DNA of 22,273 bases from a virus: positions 1 to 22,273 of IMG/VR virus record IMGVR_UViG_3300043435_000926; one strand, written 5' to 3'. The translations under genes were made by a program, and so were the position numbers. Position 1 is the first letter of the stretch. Every line of letters begins with the position of its first letter. Positions 3,582-22,273 of the stretch are shown piece after piece. The notes under the pieces were generated by a model. It saw only the letters and a program-made list of their open reading frames with translations, was not told the origin of the DNA and ran no database searches.

Positions 3582-3803
3582 TCACCCTAATTTTCTATTA
3601 AGTTCAGTGTAGCCGCCCACGTATTCTTCGCCCAGAAAAATCTGAGGCACAGTCTTTGCTGTTGGCACTGATTCCAACAATTGCTGTTTAGTCCAGTTTT
3701 CACCAATGATTCGTTCTTCATACAAAATACCCTTCATATCGAGCAGATTTTTAGCTGCCACACAATAAGGGCAAGTAGGTTTGGTCCAGATAATCGCTTT
3801 CAT
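3582..3803 (-). CDS. glutaredoxin
   Basis: The 73-aa protein is a compact phage-type glutaredoxin. It has the redox motif Cys11-Pro-Tyr-Cys14 after the first strand, the TVPQIF cis-proline motif at residues 51-56, and the GGY glutathione-binding turn at about 63-65. It would reduce the disulfide formed in NrdA during ribonucleotide reduction, using glutathione, in the cytoplasm. A strong AGGAG lies 5 bases before the ATG. It directly follows nrdB in the same transcription unit, as expected for the dedicated electron donor of a phage ribonucleotide reductase. At 73 aa it is slightly shorter than bacterial Grx1/Grx3 (about 82-85 aa), but no motif is missing. Confidence 0.93.
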   Translation of the reverse strand: MKAIIWTKPTCPYCVAAKNLLDMKGILYEERIIGENWTKQQLLESVPTAKTVPQIFLGEEYVGGYTELNRKLG

Positions 3804-3824: not shown

Positions 3825-4928
3825 TTATAGCTCGGGCAATTCATCATAATTAATTGTTGAATCCATCAAACCTATGACGTAGTTTGTTGATTCATTTTCC
3901 TGCAAGGCTGTTTGTTTCTTGCTAGTTTCGGTGTGTTTTCGAAACCATGGAATAGGCGTATTTTTTGGTGCAGTGGTGTTATACTTAATACCGATCTCTT
4001 TAAGAGCACCGATGGCGGTATAATCCACGAAGTCTTTGAGAATATTAGCATTCAGTCCGATGACTGGACCTTTCTTGAATAAGTAATCTGCCCATTCCTT
4101 TTCTTCTCTGATCACATCCAAATACATGTTATACACTTCTTGTTCACATTCCTGTTTTGCTTGTGCAAATCTAGCATCTTCCTTGACAACCTGATTGATG
4201 ATCCAAGCTGTCCATTCTTTGTGTAATAGTTCATCTTGTAGAATCAAGCTGATGATATTTCCATTACCAATGAAGATCCTGTTCTCGACCATGGCTAGTG
4301 ATGTTGCAAATGATACCATGAATCGAAGTGCTTCAAGTGCATAGCTGGCATTCAATGCTAGCCAGATTGCTCTGATGTGATCCTTTTCACTGACCAGCAT
4401 CTCTCCGATCTCTTTCTGACAATTCAGCTTATGCAGTTGATCATAGTAATTACCCACACTGCTGGCCATATCTACGATTTCTTTAGTGTCATGAATAGTA
4501 TTGAATATTTCTTTCGGCACATTGTAGATGTTGCGAATGATGTGGCTATAACTGCGACTATGAATATTCGTTTCAAAAAAAGTCCAATTGTAAAGTAGTG
4601 CTTCCAGTTCAGGTAATGAAACAACTGGTGTGAAAATCTGCGATGGACCTCTACCCTGCACGCTGTCTAGCGCGGTCTGTCGCAAGAGGTTAGAGGTAAA
4701 AATATGTTTGACGCTGTCGCTGGCATCTTTGAAATCGTTCGAATCTTTTGTCAAACTGATCTCTTCAGGAACCCAGAAAAAACCTCTAGCAGTCTGTTCT
4801 AGTTTTGCTAATTTGTTGTACTTTACTTCCTCAAATCGCTGGACAGTGACTGGGCCTGCAGGATCTAGAAACATCTTGCGATTAAGGTAGTCTGTTTTAG
4901 TGTTTAGATTGTATTGTTGTTTCGACAT
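3825..4928 (-). CDS. nrdB: ribonucleoside-diphosphate reductase class Ia, beta subunit (R2)
   Basis: The 367-aa protein matches NrdB across its length. Established landmarks are the first metal ligand Asp88 in TALDSVQGR, Glu119 and His123 in FFETNIHSRSY, the likely radical tyrosine Tyr127, Glu199 in YALEALRF, and Glu233/His236 in DELLH. R2 houses the diiron-tyrosyl radical that is passed to NrdA. The C-terminal tail ends NYDELPEL, consistent with the peptide that docks on NrdA. One oddity is that the first ExxH pair reads Glu-Thr-Asn-Ile-His, one residue longer than the Glu-Thr-Ile-His of E. coli and T4; I re-read the bases and the codons are clear. AGGA lies 8 bases before the ATG at 4928. 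It follows the 207-aa gene by 13 bases and precedes glutaredoxin. Confidence 0.97.
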   Translation of the reverse strand: MSKQQYNLNTKTDYLNRKMFLDPAGPVTVQRFEEVKYNKLAKLEQTARGFFWVPEEISLTKDSNDFKDASDSVKHIFTSNLLRQTALDSVQGRGPSQIFTPVVSLPELEALLYNWTFFETNIHSRSYSHIIRNIYNVPKEIFNTIHDTKEIVDMASSVGNYYDQLHKLNCQKEIGEMLVSEKDHIRAIWLALNASYALEALRFMVSFATSLAMVENRIFIGNGNIISLILQDELLHKEWTAWIINQVVKEDARFAQAKQECEQEVYNMYLDVIREEKEWADYLFKKGPVIGLNANILKDFVDYTAIGALKEIGIKYNTTAPKNTPIPWFRKHTETSKKQTALQENESTNYVIGLMDSTINYDELPEL

Positions 4929-6215: not shown

Positions 6216-6749
6216 CTAAAGCTTACATGAATCACAGTCCGAATCATCTTCAACCTCAATAGATTGTTGTAATGACTGTTCTGGCTCATCGACACTCTTG
6301 CTGCCCGCTTTGTCGATAAGTGAATAATAAAAACTCTTTATTCCCCAACGATGTGCTTGCATTAAATTTTTAGCAATTAACGTAGATGGTACTTTTCGAT
6401 CTGGAAAATGCTTTGGCGAATAAAATGTATTAGTACTTATGCTCTGATCCACATAAGCAGCAAGCACTGCGGCAGTCTTCAAATAGCCTACGCAATCCTT
6501 TTGCTCCCACATCAACTGATATTTGTTCTTCAGTCTGTGATATTCAGGGACTACTTGAGTCAATGATCCAGCCTTGCTTTCTTTAACAGAGATCAGTGAC
6601 ATTGGCATCTCGATACCATTTGTGGAATTGATGACTACAGAAGAATTATGGGACACGCAGCCATTTGGTAATGCATAAGCTCCACTGCGAGTTGTTATAT
6701 CATAGGTGGGTACGATTTCTAGTTTACGATTTATTTTTTTGATTTTCAT
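6216..6749 (-). CDS. nrdA: NrdA C-terminal part fused to the C-terminal half of a split intein (IntC plus C-extein)
   Basis: The 177-aa protein has two parts. Residues 1-35 are an intein C-terminal half: TYDIT followed by a GAYALPNG segment and the terminal CVSHN, with the penultimate His34 and terminal Asn35 needed for splicing. Ser36 is the +1 nucleophile. Residues 36-177 (142 aa) are the C-terminal end of NrdA: SSVVINSTNGIE, a QVVPEY segment, the radical-transfer Tyr pair in KSFYYSLI, and the tail CDSCKL with two redox cysteines. The ATG at 6749 has an excellent GGAG at 6757..6760, 7 bases upstream and inside the endonuclease gene, so this half is translated on its own. It overlaps the endonuclease ORF by 26 bases in another frame. 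Trans-splicing with the upstream ORF would restore NrdA. Confidence 0.93.
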   Translation of the reverse strand: MKIKKINRKLEIVPTYDITTRSGAYALPNGCVSHNSSVVINSTNGIEMPMSLISVKESKAGSLTQVVPEYHRLKNKYQLMWEQKDCVGYLKTAAVLAAYVDQSISTNTFYSPKHFPDRKVPSTLIAKNLMQAHRWGIKSFYYSLIDKAGSKSVDEPEQSLQQSIEVEDDSDCDSCKL

Positions 6750-7914
6750 TTATTTTCTCCATTAACTCTTCGATTGTGATCGAGCATTTCATTCTTTTGC
6801 TACAATTTTCTTCAGTCAAAACCCATTCTAGATTTTCATGATGCCCGATTATATCAGGATCTATACCGTTTAGAAAGCCCTGCATTTTTGAAAATCGGTG
6901 ATCCACTTGGTATTCACCACGATGTTTGCCTCTTTTTCCAGGGCATGCCGGTATTTTTTTCAACGAATTCTTAGTTACTCTATCAACTCTTGCCGAATAT
7001 CCTTGAAGTCCTTTATGCAATTCTTCTGCTAATTTTCCTTGTTCTCTGAAACATGAAGATTTTGATTTACGTCTTCTTTCATAGATTTCTAGACCATTAT
7101 TACCATATCTATCTAAACAAAATTGCAAACTAGAACTATCTTTCTTTTCATTAATCGACTGCATTATTCTTTCAATTTCTTCTTTTGAATGATTTCTGGA
7201 CTCATAAAATTCTCGATGTAATCCAGAATACATTTTTTGAACTGACGATATCATTTTCATGGAATCTTCTTTAGAATATCCACGCTTCAGCCAAAAATCA
7301 ACTGTACATCTGTTAGTTTCTCTTTTGTATTTTGTGAAGCCTGCTAGATCATCTCCCCAGTAATCACTATAATTTTTGTGAAATCTATGTATAAACTTAT
7401 GTCGTTCTCGTCCTTCTACTTCCCCGTGCAATTCAATACATCTTTCTAATGACAGAGAAGTCTCGTATTTCAGAGTTTTTACTTTATCTCGCGCTTGCTC
7501 TTCGGTCATTCCTTTTTTCAGCCAATAAGAAATATCATAGGTATTTGGTTTATTTCTGCGATATTCTGCTTGACGAATTTGCCAGGTCTGTCCATACTTT
7601 ACTCGAAAATACTCTTCACTATTTGCCACTGATGTATTTTCTTTTCTAAATTCAAGCCAAAGTTTATATCTCTCAGAACAATACTCTTCATCAGTGAGAC
7701 CTTGTACATATTTCAAATATCGACCATCATGAACAAATCTAAACACTGCATTCATGATGTTGTCTCTGTTCTTTAGAGAAAGTTGATAAAACTCCGACAA
7801 GTCTTCGGTAGAAACTGAACTCAAGAGTTTTGACAGTTCTGACAGAGTTTTGGCTCTTTGTAAGATTTTCTTAGGCTGGGATCTCGGTTTGCCCAAAATC
7901 ACCAACTTCAACAA
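6724..7914 (-). CDS. HNH-type homing endonuclease between the split intein halves
   Basis: The 396-aa protein is basic and soluble. Near the C-terminus (about residues 331-385) it has an HNH-like core: YQVDHRFSKMQGFLNGIDP, with Asp338-His339, then GHHENLEWV (Asn361) and EENCSKRMKCSIT (Asn370, Lys373). This is the His-Asn-Asn/His metal-finger nuclease pattern common in phage homing endonucleases. The middle part repeats a short DNA-binding-like unit: SYWLKKGMTEEQA at 129, DFWLKRGYSKEDS at 206 and a weaker copy near 265. The frame has a stop six codons before the TTG at 7914 and no ATG until residue 54. The TTG has AGGGAG at 7921..7926, 6 bases upstream. It overlaps the NrdA/IntN ORF by 44 bases and the IntC ORF by 26 bases. 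It probably cuts an intein-free nrdA to spread the element. Confidence 0.85.
   Translation of the reverse strand: MLKLVILGKPRSQPKKILQRAKTLSELSKLLSSVSTEDLSEFYQLSLKNRDNIMNAVFRFVHDGRYLKYVQGLTDEEYCSERYKLWLEFRKENTSVANSEEYFRVKYGQTWQIRQAEYRRNKPNTYDISYWLKKGMTEEQARDKVKTLKYETSLSLERCIELHGEVEGRERHKFIHRFHKNYSDYWGDDLAGFTKYKRETNRCTVDFWLKRGYSKEDSMKMISSVQKMYSGLHREFYESRNHSKEEIERIMQSINEKKDSSSLQFCLDRYGNNGLEIYERRRKSKSSCFREQGKLAEELHKGLQGYSARVDRVTKNSLKKIPACPGKRGKHRGEYQVDHRFSKMQGFLNGIDPDIIGHHENLEWVLTEENCSKRMKCSITIEELMEKINENQKNKS
6757..6760 (-). promoter_or_regulatory. Shine-Dalgarno GGAG for the IntC/NrdA C-terminal ORF
   Basis: GGAG lies 7 bases before the ATG at 6749 and is embedded in the last codons of the endonuclease gene. 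It shows that the C-terminal NrdA piece has its own translation start, which argues against one long ORF broken by sequencing errors. Confidence 0.75.
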
Positions 7915-10132
7915 CGTCGTCTCCCTCTTCTAATTCCCAAACTCGTAGCCACTGTTTTTCTCCGTTTCTGTGTACCAGTAATTTATGATTATCAGTAAGC
8001 TTTACAATAGATCCATCTTCGAATTCTAGTTCGTTGACGTAGGCTAGACCATTATAGTAAATATCAGTGATAAAATCTTCTTTTCCATCTGGACCGACTA
8101 CTGAAATCTCCGAGATTCGATGATGACCGACAAGATTTTCAGATTCGATCCGTGTCCAATCTAAGCCTGCTCGTTCACACAATTGATGAAAATTTGGCAA
8201 TGACCCATCGATAGTATTTATCTTATCTTCCCAAGAATGACAACTTTCCACCGGTGCAATTGCCATGAGTGTTGCATTTCTGACACCATGTTGCTTCATC
8301 TCTGCACGCAAACTTTCCCAATCAAGTTCTGGAGTAAAGTCTGTTAATTCATTGACTCCCTTTGCTCTGAGTTCCCACGGGAAAATACCTTGTCCATAGC
8401 GTGTCCGATCGCTATGCAAGCACTTTCCGCGTTCTTTAGCAAGTTCAACGGTAGCTTCAGTCAAATAATATGCCTGAGCTTCCATCCAACTCTTGACTTC
8501 TCGTAGAGCATCCGTTTCACCGTACTTCAATCCTCTCTTAGCATGCCAATATGCAAGATTAGTCACGCCGATTCCCAGTGGCTGAATCTCGTCGTTGCTT
8601 AATTTGCTTTGAATGCTCAAGAAATCCTGATAGTCAAGAATGTTGCACAAACTACGTTGCAAAATGCGGCAAGCTCGACGCATATCTTCGGGGTTTCTAA
8701 AACTTCCCCAATTTATGGACCCGAGGGTACAGAGGGCGATTCGGCCCTGATCATCATCTAGTCGCTTGAAGGGCTTAGTTGGAAGCAAAATTTCCAGACA
8801 AAGGTTACTTTGATAGATCGTATGATACTCTGGATCAAACGGACCCTGATTCATCACGTTATCAATGAATACTAGATAGATTCTACCTGTGTCGGTTCTT
8901 TCCTTAAGAATTCCACCCTTGAATACATCTTCTGCATTCATTGTCTTCTTACGCAAATCCTTACGTTTTTCGTATTTGCAGTAAAGTTCTTCAAACTTCG
9001 CGCAATTTGTATAAAAAGCTTCGTATAAGTCGGGAACTTCGTTAGGATCAAAGAAGGTGATATTTTCACGGTTTTTGAACCTTTTCCAGAAGAATGCTGA
9101 TAGCACTACGCCATAGTCCATATGACGTACTCTTGTTTCTTCTGTTCCCTGATTGTTCTTGATGATAATAAGATCGTCGAACTGATAGTGCCAGATAGGA
9201 TAGAAGATCGTAGCACTTGCGTTACGTATACCACCCTGACTGCAACTACGTAGATCACCAAACCATTTCTTTAAGAATGGCACCATACCAGTATGCATGA
9301 CTTCTCCACCTCGAATAGGTGATCCTAAAGGACGTAGTCTGCCCACTTCTAGACCAATACCAGCACGTTTGCTAGCATATTTTGCCATCATTTCTCCTGA
9401 CGCAAAAATACTATCAAGATCGTCGTCTGATTTGATCAATACGCAACTACTAAATTGCTTTGTGGGTGTGCCTAGTCCCGCTAATACAGGAGTAGCAAGA
9501 GTAAAAAGACCATCACTAGCTGCGTGATAATACTCTTTGATATATCGCATCCGTGCTGCATTAGGTTCTTCTTTATGGAATACTGTCGCGGCTGCAATCA
9601 TATATCTGACCTGAGGGGTCTCATAAATCTGCTTAGTTGCACGATTTCGAACCAGATATTTTTCAATTAGCTGCTCAATCGCAGCGTAACTGTACTGCTC
9701 GTCCTTCTCATGATCGATGATTTCTTCCATCTTGTTCCAATCTTCTTCTGAGTACCATTCTAGTAGTTCAGAAGTGTAAAGACCAGACTCGACGTTTGTT
9801 TTTACAATTTCAAACAGTGCTGGAGGTTCGTATTGCCCATAAACGTCCTTTCGAAGCATAGATAGACGTTGTTTTCCTGCAACATATTGATAGTTTACAT
9901 GTCCCACATCTTGATTGTTCTCAACATCAATAAGATCTACTATCGCACGAAGAGTGATTTCATCGATTTCGCGAGTGGTAATACCATCATAAAAATGTGG
10001 CTGGGCTTTGATCTCAACCATGGATTGACTGACATCAGCAATACCTTTGCAGATGTTTGCAATTTGAGCTTGCCACTTTTCGACAGTCAACAACTCTCGA
10101 TTACCTGAACGTTTAATGACGTAGATTTTCAT
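7871..10132 (-). CDS. nrdA: ribonucleoside-diphosphate reductase class Ia alpha subunit, N-terminal part fused to IntN
   Basis: The 753-aa ORF is NrdA residues 1-630 plus a 123-aa intein N-terminal half. It starts with a complete ATP-cone (VIKRSGNRELLTVEKW to about residue 90), so ATP/dATP activity control is probably kept. Catalytic landmarks are all present: Cys230 (FSSCVLIK), Asn443, Cys445 and Glu447 in QSNLCLEI, and Cys468 in ALCTLGS. These correspond to E. coli Cys225, Asn437, Cys439, Glu441 and Cys462. NrdA reduces ribonucleoside diphosphates using the radical from NrdB. The extein stops at APVES in the substrate-phosphate loop and Cys631 begins the intein. Alone this ORF lacks the Tyr-Tyr radical path and redox tail, which the 177-aa ORF supplies. 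AGGA precedes the ATG at 10132, which overlaps the 147-aa gene by 4 bases. Confidence 0.96.
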   Translation of the reverse strand: MKIYVIKRSGNRELLTVEKWQAQIANICKGIADVSQSMVEIKAQPHFYDGITTREIDEITLRAIVDLIDVENNQDVGHVNYQYVAGKQRLSMLRKDVYGQYEPPALFEIVKTNVESGLYTSELLEWYSEEDWNKMEEIIDHEKDEQYSYAAIEQLIEKYLVRNRATKQIYETPQVRYMIAAATVFHKEEPNAARMRYIKEYYHAASDGLFTLATPVLAGLGTPTKQFSSCVLIKSDDDLDSIFASGEMMAKYASKRAGIGLEVGRLRPLGSPIRGGEVMHTGMVPFLKKWFGDLRSCSQGGIRNASATIFYPIWHYQFDDLIIIKNNQGTEETRVRHMDYGVVLSAFFWKRFKNRENITFFDPNEVPDLYEAFYTNCAKFEELYCKYEKRKDLRKKTMNAEDVFKGGILKERTDTGRIYLVFIDNVMNQGPFDPEYHTIYQSNLCLEILLPTKPFKRLDDDQGRIALCTLGSINWGSFRNPEDMRRACRILQRSLCNILDYQDFLSIQSKLSNDEIQPLGIGVTNLAYWHAKRGLKYGETDALREVKSWMEAQAYYLTEATVELAKERGKCLHSDRTRYGQGIFPWELRAKGVNELTDFTPELDWESLRAEMKQHGVRNATLMAIAPVESCHSWEDKINTIDGSLPNFHQLCERAGLDWTRIESENLVGHHRISEISVVGPDGKEDFITDIYYNGLAYVNELEFEDGSIVKLTDNHKLLVHRNGEKQWLRVWELEEGDDVVEVGDFGQTEIPA
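7921..7926 (-). promoter_or_regulatory. Shine-Dalgarno AGGGAG for the TTG start of the endonuclease
   Basis: AGGGAG lies 6 bases before the TTG at 7912..7914, inside the IntN codons for Glu-Glu-Gly-Asp. It is the best start signal in this frame, because the frame is closed by TAG six codons upstream and the first ATG is at residue 54. Coding constraint could also explain the purines. Confidence 0.45.
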
Positions 10133-10572
10133 AATGATCCTATTTTTCGTTGGAGTGGCGTAGTGTCGATTTTCTTTACAATAGTAAAGTCAGACAGCTT
10201 GATATTTAACACTGACTCAGGCCAGTAATTAAGTATATATTTTGCGCCGTCTACCAACACTAGTACCACTTGTTCACCATTATCATCTTTAGCGATGGCT
10301 AAGTCAATGCGGCAAACACCCAGAAATAGCAATGTGTAGATCATACCTAGCCCACGGGCATACGGGCAATACGTATTGATATGCAACAAGTCCCATGGAT
10401 TTGGCCACTCGTTTATCAAGTCAGGATGTAAATAATGCTCGACAAAAGGAACTTTTTGCCAATATCTATCGACTTCAATGCATTGTTCTTCGAGGGACAG
10501 TAAATCAATTTTTTGCCTAAAAGAAGCCCATGATTGCAGTCTAGACTCGTAAGAACTTAAAAATGGGTTCAT
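10129..10572 (-). CDS. unrecognised 147-aa protein upstream of nrdA
   Basis: I do not recognise the family. The protein starts MNPFLSSYESRLQSWASFRQ, is rich in Trp and Tyr, and has a helical N-terminal half. The C-terminal half reads NPWDLLHINTYCPYARGLGM, then a hydrophobic YTLLFLG, a VVLVLVDGAKYILNYWP strand pair and a final beta segment. The order Cys-helix, LG turn, strand, strand-Asn loosely recalls transglutaminase-like cysteine peptidase folds (Cys-His-Asp), but no catalytic His is evident in the expected strand. If related it would be inactive or divergent. AGG lies about 6 bases before the ATG. It overlaps nrdA by 4 bases, so the two are translationally coupled. Confidence 0.75.
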   Translation of the reverse strand: MNPFLSSYESRLQSWASFRQKIDLLSLEEQCIEVDRYWQKVPFVEHYLHPDLINEWPNPWDLLHINTYCPYARGLGMIYTLLFLGVCRIDLAIAKDDNGEQVVLVLVDGAKYILNYWPESVLNIKLSDFTIVKKIDTTPLQRKIGSL

Positions 10573-20111: not shown

Positions 20112-21620
20112 TTATGTTGTTTTTTTCTTGGCTTTGATTTTTTCCACAAACGCTTTATATTTTTTGTAAAATATGCTTCGTTTTATAGCAGATTCACCAG
20201 CAGGAAATCTGCCTTTAACTACTTTGCGTGCATATTCGTATGCGTATTCTGGATCACTTGCTATCTTTTTTTCTGCTTCTGGCCATCTGCCTTTAACTAT
20301 GTTGCGTGCATATTCGTATGCGTATTCTATATCACTTGCTATCTTTTTTTCTGCTTCTGGCCATCTGCCACGGATTATATTTCGGGCGTACAAGTACGCC
20401 CATTCTCGATTTTTTGCAATAGCTGCTTCACCAGCAGGAAATCTGCCACCTATGACATCTGCGGCGTAATCGTATGCCCAACCGGGATCTTTTGCAATAG
20501 CTGCTTCACCGGCAGGAAATCTGCCCTGGATGATCGTGTCGGCGTACTCGTGTGCCAGTTTGGGATCTTTTGCAATAGCTGCCTCGATCTCAGGCCATCT
20601 ACCTTTCAGAACTTTTTTTGCATAATATATTGCATGATCTGGATGTTTTATTAAAACTTGTTCCGCCTCAGGCCATCTGCCTCGTACACGCTTTATCGCA
20701 TATTCTGTGAGTAATCCCAAGCTGTGAGGGTCTTTCAAAAGCAATTTTTCTAGTTCTGGCCAGCGTTCTTTTTTATAGCTTAATGTGTAATAAAAAAGAT
20801 CCCAGAGTTTGTCACTATTGCGACTTGCTGCTTTTAGCATAGCCGATTCTCCGGCTGGAAATCTTGCTTTGTAAATTTTATCTGCATATGGCAAAGCTTT
20901 CTTACCATCGGTGGTGATGGGTTTACCGGGATCGGCAAAAAGTTTTTTCAAAACTGGATGATCGTGTGCAAAATGTTTTATTAGCGTGGCTGATAGTTGA
21001 CGATCTTTTGAATTCATGAACTGTCCAGACGGGAAATGAAACTGATATTTTTCGCCATTTTTATCGCGCCAGATGTACAGAGGCCCTTCGCTATGATATT
21101 CGCTAAACAGGTTATCTTGTTTGCCGGCAGTACACCATTTGGTGCCACTGCCTAAAATGCAACTGGCCTTTTGTGTTTTTGGCACAGCCAGTAATCCCAG
21201 AGGTCCGTTGTATAAAACTGTTGTGTTTGGTGGCACCTCAAAAGTCTGCTGTGTTTCGGGCGCAACTTGTTGCGGCGCTTGCAGTTCTACGTTATAGATT
21301 CTATCCATTGCGTCTTCTAAAGAATGGAAGTCGTATCTATTGATATCTCGTTGTTCTAATCTGGATTTTGCATTGATGAATTTTTCTAGTACGTCTTTGA
21401 TTCTTGGTCTGTCTTCTAGTCGGAACTGCTGTTTGTTATACTGATTTGCTAACCAGAGAGTGTATTGCTTGTTGGGGGTTGGATCCATCTCTTCTAGAGC
21501 AGCAAGAATTTGATCGACATCAGTGATGTTTTCTCTTTCAGCAGATGCCAAGAGACGAGACCCAAGATTCTTGGCTGTGATGTCTCGTTTGTACTCGATG
21601 AGAAAATCTCTAGATCTCAT
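20112..21620 (-). CDS. unrecognised TKWCTA-domain protein with 26-aa GRWPEAE/GRFPAGE repeats (502 aa)
   Basis: I do not know a named family. From the ATG at 21620 the layout is as follows. Residues 1-110 are charged and helical (MRSRDFLIEYKRDITAKN). Residues about 111-130 are a Gln/Pro linker. Residues about 130-230 are a compact domain with LYNGPLGLLAVPK, CILGSGTKWCTAGKQDN (Trp162, Cys163), GPLYIWRDKNGEKYQFHFPS and HPVLKKLF. Residues about 244-480 are nine repeats of about 26 aa with core G-R-(W/F)-P-(E-A/A-G)-E. A Lys-rich tail ends the protein. Each repeat probably forms two helices, giving an alpha solenoid. The ATG overlaps the upstream stop (ATGA); a second ATG six bases earlier lies in repeat-derived sequence. 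No signal peptide or catalytic residues are assignable. It precedes the fibre cluster. Confidence 0.8.
   Translation of the reverse strand: MRSRDFLIEYKRDITAKNLGSRLLASAERENITDVDQILAALEEMDPTPNKQYTLWLANQYNKQQFRLEDRPRIKDVLEKFINAKSRLEQRDINRYDFHSLEDAMDRIYNVELQAPQQVAPETQQTFEVPPNTTVLYNGPLGLLAVPKTQKASCILGSGTKWCTAGKQDNLFSEYHSEGPLYIWRDKNGEKYQFHFPSGQFMNSKDRQLSATLIKHFAHDHPVLKKLFADPGKPITTDGKKALPYADKIYKARFPAGESAMLKAASRNSDKLWDLFYYTLSYKKERWPELEKLLLKDPHSLGLLTEYAIKRVRGRWPEAEQVLIKHPDHAIYYAKKVLKGRWPEIEAAIAKDPKLAHEYADTIIQGRFPAGEAAIAKDPGWAYDYAADVIGGRFPAGEAAIAKNREWAYLYARNIIRGRWPEAEKKIASDIEYAYEYARNIVKGRWPEAEKKIASDPEYAYEYARKVVKGRFPAGESAIKRSIFYKKYKAFVEKIKAKKKTT
20181..20891 (-). repeat. 78-bp (26-aa) repeats in the complete paralogue
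   Basis: About nine units, the distal ones regular (two RFPAGE, two RWPEAE, one RFPAGE toward the C-terminus) and the proximal ones diverged in length and sequence. Two adjacent RWPEAEKKIAS units are nearly identical in protein and DNA. Confidence 0.85.
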
Positions 21621-22273
21621 GGCCATTTACCACCGACGACGTTTTTAGCGTACAGGTATGCCCATTTGGCATCTTTTGCAATAGCTGCTTCCGCTTCAGG
21701 CCATCTGCCACCTATGACGTTTAGAGCGTATCCTAATGCCGAGTAGGGATCTTTTGCAATAACTGCTTCCGCCTCAGGCCATCTGCCACCTATGACATCT
21801 CGGGCGTACCAGTATGCCCATTGAGGGTCTGCGGCAATAGCTGGTTCCCCCGCAGGCCATCTGCCGACGATGACATACATGGCGTACTTGTATGCGTCGC
21901 CGGAATCTTTTGCAATAACTGCTTCCGCTTCAGGCCATCTGCCACGTATGATATCTTTGGCGTACAAGTATGCCCATTCGGGATCTTTTGCAATAACTGC
22001 TTCGACCTCGGGCCATCTGCCACGAACGACGTTTCCGGCATACCTGTATGCCCGTTTGGGATCTTTTGCAATAGCTGCTTCCGCTTCAGGCCATCTGCCA
22101 CGAATGACATCTCGGGCGTACTCGTATGCCCATTCGGGATCTGTAGCAATAACTGCTTCTGCCTCAGGCCATCTGCCACGTATGACATCTCGGGCGTACT
22201 CGTATGCCCATTCGGGATCTTTTGCTGTTTCTTTTTCTTTAGCAGCGAAGAGCTTCTTGAGAACTGGATGTTT
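21617..22273 (-). CDS. paralogue of the GRWPEAE-repeat protein, 5' part outside the window (218 aa seen)
   Basis: The frame is open from the window edge to a TGA at 21617..21619. The first residues seen, KHPVLKKLFAAKEKET, match the segment just before the repeats in the complete downstream protein (HPVLKKLFADPGK). The missing part therefore probably contains the same TKWCTA domain. Seven full 26-aa units follow, such as DPEWAYEYARDVIRGRWPEA. The eighth stops after GGKWP, in mid-unit, with the stop overlapping the downstream start. Compared with its paralogue it lacks the Lys-rich C-terminal tail. A TTG at 21967 inside the repeats is not a real start. Function unknown; the solenoid could be a protein-binding surface. 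Confidence 0.82.
   Translation of the reverse strand, partial: KHPVLKKLFAAKEKETAKDPEWAYEYARDVIRGRWPEAEAVIATDPEWAYEYARDVIRGRWPEAEAAIAKDPKRAYRYAGNVVRGRWPEVEAVIAKDPEWAYLYAKDIIRGRWPEAEAVIAKDSGDAYKYAMYVIVGRWPAGEPAIAADPQWAYWYARDVIGGRWPEAEAVIAKDPYSALGYALNVIGGRWPEAEAAIAKDAKWAYLYAKNVVGGKWP
21620..22219 (-). repeat. 78-bp tandem repeat array, 7.7 units
   Basis: Units run DPEWAYEYARDVIRGRWPEA plus EAVIAK, exactly 26 codons each. The two units nearest the window edge share a stretch of more than 35 identical bases at a 78-base offset (22104..22142 and 22182..22220), which points to recent duplication or gene conversion. One unit has the hybrid core GRWPAGE. Confidence 0.9.

Follow-up and report, generated by a model that had tools for sequence, protein, structure and literature searches.

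Why is nrdA, the class Ia ribonucleotide reductase gene, read from three overlapping open reading frames (ORFs), each in a different frame, in the virus record IMGVR_UViG_3300043435_000926? The record was analysed over 22,273 bp (hereafter, the window), and the gene runs from 10132 to 6216 on the minus strand, where the ORF parts and ribosome-binding-like sites described below also lie. The N-half ORF (10132..7871) encodes NrdA residues 1-630 (8243..10132; ATP cone, all-alpha domain and most of the barrel, ending in APVES), followed by the 123-residue N-terminal part of an intein (IntN; 7874..8242, from Cys1 to the TDNH of block B and beyond, with its stop codon at 7871-7873). A free-standing endonuclease ORF (6724..7914; 396 codons from a TTG at 7914) overlaps IntN by 44 nucleotides and, at its other end, overlaps by 26 nucleotides the 35-residue C-terminal part of the intein (IntC; 6645..6749, ending in GCVSHN). 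The latter opens the C-half ORF (6749..6216), which continues into the 142 C-terminal NrdA residues (6219..6644, beginning SSVVINSTNGIE, stop codon at 6216-6218). An earlier reading made from the letters of the window (the sequence-only reading) had placed the three ORFs at these coordinates, and all of them were recovered when the ORFs were re-checked. We consider it very probable that this nrdA belongs to a phage and is broken by a mobile composite, made of a split class 1 intein and the gene of a free-standing HNH-like homing endonuclease.

Both halves matched Pfam Ribonuc_red_lgC (7.8e-91 for the N-half and 1.3e-09 for the C-half), and the C-half was also matched by PHROG and NCBIfam NrdA models; judged from these matches, the NrdA identity of both sides of the break is certain. 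Among the matches listed, the best phage records were 56-60% identical to the N-half ORF over 83-85% of its length.

The residues required for protein splicing were present as first described, namely the terminal His-Asn, Ser at position +1 and a T-x-x-H block B (TDNH), together with Cys1. Cys1 was found in all five aligned IntN sequences, where T83 and H86 of the TDNH block were also invariant, and in the 12 inteins compared. These 12, of which 10 are split and 2 contiguous, also keep TxxH and His-Asn, and position +1 is occupied by Ser or Thr. The junction reads SHN/SS in the window, and HN/S or HN/T in the 10 junctions compared. The first block of IntN is weak, in line with the initial description: it scored 17.3 bits against NCBIfam intein_Nterm (cut-off 24.5) and 17.6 against Pfam Intein_splicing (cut-off 35.8). 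As a natural fused proxy for the window intein, the contiguous intein of phage CP220 was modelled with AlphaFold2 (predicted local distance difference test, pLDDT, 87). All 50 PDB rows listed for this model were inteins or Hedgehog Hint domains, the best match being 5o9j (Z 10.0, root-mean-square deviation 3.6, 141 aligned).

The predicted splice point could be compared with uninterrupted genes. IMG/VR was scanned with the C-half, and the best 80 of at least 598 confirmed relatives, a sample that favours close relatives by construction, comprised 76 uninterrupted nrdA genes, three fractured ones (L038, L039 and L040, the first two being near-identical contigs) and one ended by the contig edge (L103). 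In the 76 uninterrupted genes, N-extein and C-extein are codon-adjacent at the predicted splice point, which makes the proposed junction APVES/SSVVINSTNGIE exact. Empty alleles numbered 80 among all loci compared, the commonest loops being VAPVESSSVVINSTNG (38) and IAPVESSSVVINSTNG (33). The spliced product would be a 772-residue NrdA with a junction peptide around APVESSSVVINSTNGIE. The insertion point had been labelled the phosphate loop, which agrees with what we take to be the organization of E. coli NrdA. A stretch of 30 nucleotides at the start of IntN is identical among the window and two divergent contigs, L025 and L026; it may reflect exchange or a recognition sequence. No Rfam match reached the gathering score anywhere in the window, and an interruption by a group I intron or another known RNA was accordingly discarded.

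Inteins often contain an endonuclease in frame, and the three frames could in principle derive from one continuous intein-endonuclease ORF broken by two false frameshifts during assembly or base-calling. We give this explanation a negligible chance. In three other metagenomes the same virus is represented by L015, L016 and L017, contigs that are 99.2-99.5% identical to the window and have the same three frames, and the divergent relatives have separate ORFs with their own starts and overlaps. L025 and L026 keep three separate ORFs, with IntN and nuclease 64-76% identical to those of the window and IntC 89% identical. Between the window and L025, nonsynonymous divergence (dN) was 0.214 and synonymous divergence (dS) 1.70 in the nuclease (dN/dS about 0.13; NG86 method), and dN was 0.18 in IntN and 0.08 in IntC, with saturated dS. 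IntN, endonuclease and IntC are under purifying selection, dN being far below dS. Because the three same-virus contigs share the frames and the two divergent ones keep three ORFs with dN far below dS, a base-calling error is ruled out in practice.

Two local differences were observed when the window was compared with other contigs. A mosaic patch in the C-extein (6275..6444) holds 47 of 51, 47 of 51 and 47 of 54 mismatches to the three same-virus contigs; either a divergent phage has recombined here or the assembly is chimeric. Since 200 bases separate the start of the patch from the junction and the closest match otherwise found has 86% identity, we make no claim that it is a homing tract. 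A 45-bp stretch over the nrdA start codon (10106-10150) is missing in contig 3300042541_002680 (L028).

How, then, would a functional reductase be made from the two halves? In the mechanism that we favour, a class 1 intein sits in the catalytic loop of NrdA and would itself be split, after block B, by the gene of the HNH-like homing endonuclease. The region after block B is the usual place for a homing endonuclease gene in inteins. NrdA would be made in two pieces because the endonuclease gene sits inside the intein. The three ORFs would be translated from one message through coupled initiation at the overlaps, and IntN would pair with IntC for trans-splicing, which would link NrdA 1-630 to the 142 residues at the C-terminus. 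In a co-infecting phage, the endonuclease would cut an allele lacking the intein or the nuclease, and repair would copy the composite in. The gene could instead work in pieces without splicing, the intein halves being dead or serving as a clasp and the NrdA parts functioning non-covalently, as is reported for Aeromonas phage Aeh1. This functional two-piece phage NrdA is in print (PMC3653736). This explanation is nonetheless quite improbable, given the splicing residues kept in all 12 inteins examined, the purifying selection on IntN and IntC, and the position of the break in a catalytic loop that is conserved and in which separate halves would scarcely be functional.

The endonuclease was assigned from its C-terminal residues. 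D338-H339, N361-L362 and N370-x2-K373, near the C-terminus, were invariant in all seven aligned nucleases, including that of the window, and lie in a putative HNH-like catalytic part (residues 334-394; 6733..6915). We take H ... N ... H/N to be the motif of HNH homing endonucleases and E, D, H, D to be the EDxHD (Vsr-like) motif. The nucleases of L018, L029, L035, L036 and L037 end in an EDxHD-like pattern, with weak matches to DUF559 or MTES_1575, below the cut-offs, in L018 and L029 only among these five. An EDxHD assignment of the window nuclease was rejected: its C-terminus lacks this pattern and has D-H ... N-L ... N-x2-K. The arrangement first proposed, a fractured nrdA with a split intein and a free-standing HNH-like endonuclease between the halves, is borne out, with the HNH label drawn from motif residues. 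Pfam HNH matched neither the window nuclease nor ten relatives, five of which are HNH-like; the best PHROG matches of the window nuclease were families of unknown function, and of two PDB sequence searches with it, one gave no match and the other five at E 0.1 or worse.

The two kinds of nuclease share their other parts. Profiles of the HNH-like and EDxHD-like enzymes were aligned by hhalign in the N-terminal and central region but not beyond it (probability 99.9, E 2.4e-31), and the window nuclease is 31% identical to the L029 enzyme over 205 columns by BLASTP; part of this common module corresponds to residues 60-296 of the window enzyme (7027..7737). This reads as one targeting module paired with two kinds of cutting domain. 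Phage homing genes of another family have been reported to swap domains (PMC10448857), and a review (PMC3943268) covers the modular construction of homing enzymes. The C-terminal motif of the window nuclease also occurs in genes of T4-like phages located between the tail sheath and tail tube genes (e.g., Raoultella vB_Ro_M12a), one of which is annotated as a homing endonuclease. Identity to these free-standing genes reaches 49% over 59 residues (IME540) and 46% over 54 (M12a), but their N-terminal part differs from that of the window nuclease and they have no intein. No relative of the nuclease or of IntN was found in species-representative genomes in two scans with short exact peptide patterns, whose reach is limited to close relatives; at that reach, a bacterial home for the element was not retained.

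Two further loci were noted in the course of this comparison. In L036 (2352-7215), an nrdA with an empty site is followed by nrdB (identified by eye) and then by a free-standing EDxHD-like endonuclease with the N-terminal module of the window enzyme. L012 (1448-5150) belongs to an uncultured phage of 462 kb. There, a nuclease with 37% identity over its last third to the one of the window lies between the halves of a gene that, by eye, reads like a type II topoisomerase, and an apparent IntN and IntC are present.

The start of the endonuclease deserves separate consideration. Its first ATG in the window does not come before codon 54, which leaves TTG or GTG as the start codon, probably one near 7914. 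A ribosome-binding-like GAGGGAG (7921..7927), read by eye, lies 6 nucleotides before the TTG at 7914, and a GGAG (6757..6760), also read by eye, lies within the endonuclease ORF before the ATG of IntC. In L025 and L026, ATG codons are present just upstream of the aligned start position, where the window has ACG. When one start was chosen for each nuclease and C-half (the MKI/MKV start for the latter; some have longer starts), the nuclease stop overlapped the IntC/C-half start by 4-29 nucleotides in all 12 loci (window and 11 relatives), and the N-half stop overlapped the nuclease start in 6 of the 12. The late ATG could be taken, along with the ATG near the start in two relatives and a frameshifted copy of the nuclease in phage CP21 (which may be a sequencing error), as a sign of decay: the nuclease would be inactive and the intein retained only since its loss would break nrdA. 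We hold such a remnant to be unlikely, as the window nuclease is full-length with invariant motif residues and its dN/dS relative to L025 is low.

The sequence-only reading had also put the split intein forward as a candidate new one, citing its insertion point among other features. This did not hold for site or intein, since cultured phages have the same intein family in the same NrdA loop. A tblastn search with IntN (E up to 0.1) retrieved 17 phage records, 14 from Campylobacter, two from Klebsiella and one from Eggerthella, the last being a partial match in a PhoH gene. Among the Klebsiella phages, KP13-7 and phiKp_21 have the gene fractured at this loop, as does Campylobacter phage WX1, and the same fractured arrangement was found in contigs L018, L025, L026, L030, L032, L035 and L040. 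In the Klebsiella phages (Alcyoneusvirus), IntN, an HNH-like nuclease and IntC are encoded in overlapping ORFs as in the window, but the intein is inserted one codon upstream (E/T instead of T/S), and identity to the window is 32% for IntN and 24% for the nuclease. A contiguous mini-intein occupies the same site in CP220, CPt10, CC_R7 and IBB_35, where it has 146 residues, and in F355, whose contiguous intein forms a second subgroup. Those of the Firehammervirus phages (CP220, CPt10, CC_R7 and IBB_35) are homologous to the window intein and share its NrdA position and register. WX1, classed only as Eucampyvirinae, resembles the window in having a split intein with a homologous nuclease in the gap; the Campylobacter inteins are otherwise mostly contiguous and without nuclease, with IntN 32-33% identical to that of the window.

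The Campylobacter phages allow split and contiguous alleles to be compared directly. Relative to CC_R7, about 25 nucleotides of the contiguous intein are replaced in WX1 by the nuclease, the stop codon of which falls within the intein's own GTTAAAAAC; the first 306 nucleotides of IntN are identical at 296 of 306 positions and the compared N-extein at 506 of 548. The nuclease copy that is frameshifted in CP21 is of the WX1 type, and the adjoining nrdA is identical to that of CP220 at 538 of 548 positions (98%), yet the nuclease insert differs between the two.

Other interruptions were seen in these genes. The nrdA of KP13-7 (L001:2998-8528) carries two split inteins, one after NLC (with a GIY-YIG-like gene) and one at MPGE/TSSQ, besides another insert (3877-4573) that contains a small ORF; phiKp_21 has the second split intein only. 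In WX1 (L007:766-5923) the gene is likewise interrupted by two split inteins, the first of which has two small ORFs between its halves. The nrdA of CPt10 (L006:767-4834) is a pseudogene according to its record and to PMC3653736. However, the N-half terminates in an IntN that follows NLC, with two small ORFs after it, and the remainder starts with an IntC before CEI; from its sequence this gene reads as fractured and may still be working.

Has the composite moved? The intein lies after the Thr/Ser of an E-[TS]-S-S loop in the window, L025, L026, L040, L007 and L020, and one codon earlier in L001, L018, L021, L030, L032 and L035; either register gives Ser or Thr at +1. The window and L040 are 89.8% identical over the N-extein (167 codons) and only 43% in IntN, 41% in the nuclease and 57% in IntC, whereas the window and L025 are 69% identical in the N-extein, 76% in IntN, 70% in the nuclease and 89% in IntC. 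In the NrdA tree, which included 19 of the 80 empty alleles and omitted L037, the window, L040 and 15 empty alleles formed one group (support 100/99), apart from L025 and L026 (96/92). After removal of the long branches L018 and L021, approximately unbiased (AU) tests on NrdA rejected a group of the window with L025 and L026 (p-AU 0.025) and the same group with L040 added (p-AU 0.020). On the intein, a group of the window and L040 was rejected (p-AU 0.006). These p-values are somewhat generous because the groups were named after the percent identities were known. The intein tree, from which L029 and L037 were omitted because they are split elsewhere, needs three changes of register, two of nuclease type and two between split and contiguous forms, with only three of nine inner branches well supported; CP21 and phiKp_21 were in neither tree. 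The intein and the exteins have different histories, which points to mobility.

Part of the element also shows signs of a separate, recent exchange. Between L025 and L026, IntN is 95% identical with a dS of 0.47, while the flanking NrdA is saturated and the nuclease has a dS of 2.5. Nucleotide identity is about 70% ahead of IntN, goes up to about 90% where IntN starts, and is down to 50-60% in the bin starting 25 nucleotides past its end. IntN thus seems to have been passed on by itself in a recent exchange, whose tract comprises IntN and the first bases of the nuclease.

Four observations weigh against a mobile composite of split intein and HNH-like endonuclease. The Pfam and NCBIfam intein models find the right families yet score under their curated cut-offs; the incongruence test on the nuclease tree was borderline (p-AU 0.051); the AlphaFold2 model of the window nuclease had a mean pLDDT of 63 and a best Foldseek E of 1.5, with no PDB match, and was too poor to be used for assigning a fold; and the lack of an early ATG may mean that this nuclease is weakly expressed.

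Two relatives, L029 (5480-7484) and L037 (5721-7487), differ from the rest in where the intein is split. Their nrdA is broken at the same NrdA site, and the intein is split near block A, at about profile positions 10 and 33. An additional tail on the N-half, before the nuclease gene, matches IntN profile positions 67-111 and 68-113 but lacks TxxH, scoring 13.5 and 14.3 bits; none of 1000 shuffles of each tail reached these scores. An intact copy of the IntN 67-113 region is found in the C-half, after an extra IntC-like start (first strand). By its missing TxxH the duplicated piece is predicted to be catalytically dead, and in the two loci a nuclease cassette may have moved together with remnants of its old intein; a clasp function for the tails is a guess. 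We tentatively suggest, as a possibility that may well prove wrong, that the nrdA composite is a three-part mobile element, in which one intein lineage, able to slide by one codon along a Ser/Thr run, is combined with one targeting module and an exchangeable HNH-like or EDxHD-like end, and whose nuclease cassette would jump to another position of an intein carrying intein scraps (a dead IntN 67-113 and a second IntC first strand, as in L029 and L037) that clasp the new halves for splicing.

Further along the same strand as nrdA, the window encodes NrdB, the small subunit (3825..4928), and a thioredoxin-domain, glutaredoxin-like protein (3582..3803). Elsewhere in the window (20207-22225), 78-bp tandem repeats encode a degenerate repeat protein; ORFs overlap near 21617-22188.

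At issue is how split inteins arise from contiguous ones. One NrdA loop is seen here empty (76 of the 80 best IMG/VR relatives), with a contiguous mini-intein (CP220) and fractured (WX1 and the window). With these three allele states and the contrast between CP21 and CP220, natural alleles are therefore at hand for a direct test of how the nuclease is gained or lost and of what this costs in splicing. In addition, the family provides split inteins in which Ser or Thr stands at +1, and nucleases with seemingly exchangeable targeting and cutting parts.

Fractured genes were reportedly described by Dassa et al. in 2009 as combining split inteins with free-standing endonucleases. As in the window, a conserved replication or nucleotide gene is interrupted by a split intein with an endonuclease ORF between the halves, but the nuclease of that type is EDxHD/Vsr-like and that of the window HNH-like. 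The window nrdA is a fractured gene of this known kind, and neither its site nor its intein family is new; what the relatives add is the differing histories of intein and exteins, a shared N-terminal module of the nucleases, a conserved overlap of nuclease and IntC, and two other splits. Among the open-licence PMC papers listed, no title on these splits was found, and the titles and abstract starts of those listed for WX1, phiKp_21, KP13-7 and Alcyoneusvirus mention no intein. In the literature, seven nrdA and two nrdJ genes are interrupted by inteins (PMC3653736, where the CP220 nrdA intein and the two-piece Aeh1 nrdA are in print), the split inteins NrdA-2 and NrdJ-1 are named (PMC7090010), and the inteins of IBB_35 are reported (PMC3322345). 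According to PMC3653736, the nrdA of Aeromonas phage Aeh1 is, like that of the window, divided into two genes, nrdA-a and nrdA-b, with a homing endonuclease gene (MobE) between them. There, the break is stated, for the mobE insertion, to have arisen without a splicing element (PMC3653736), whereas both halves of the window gene carry intein sequence.

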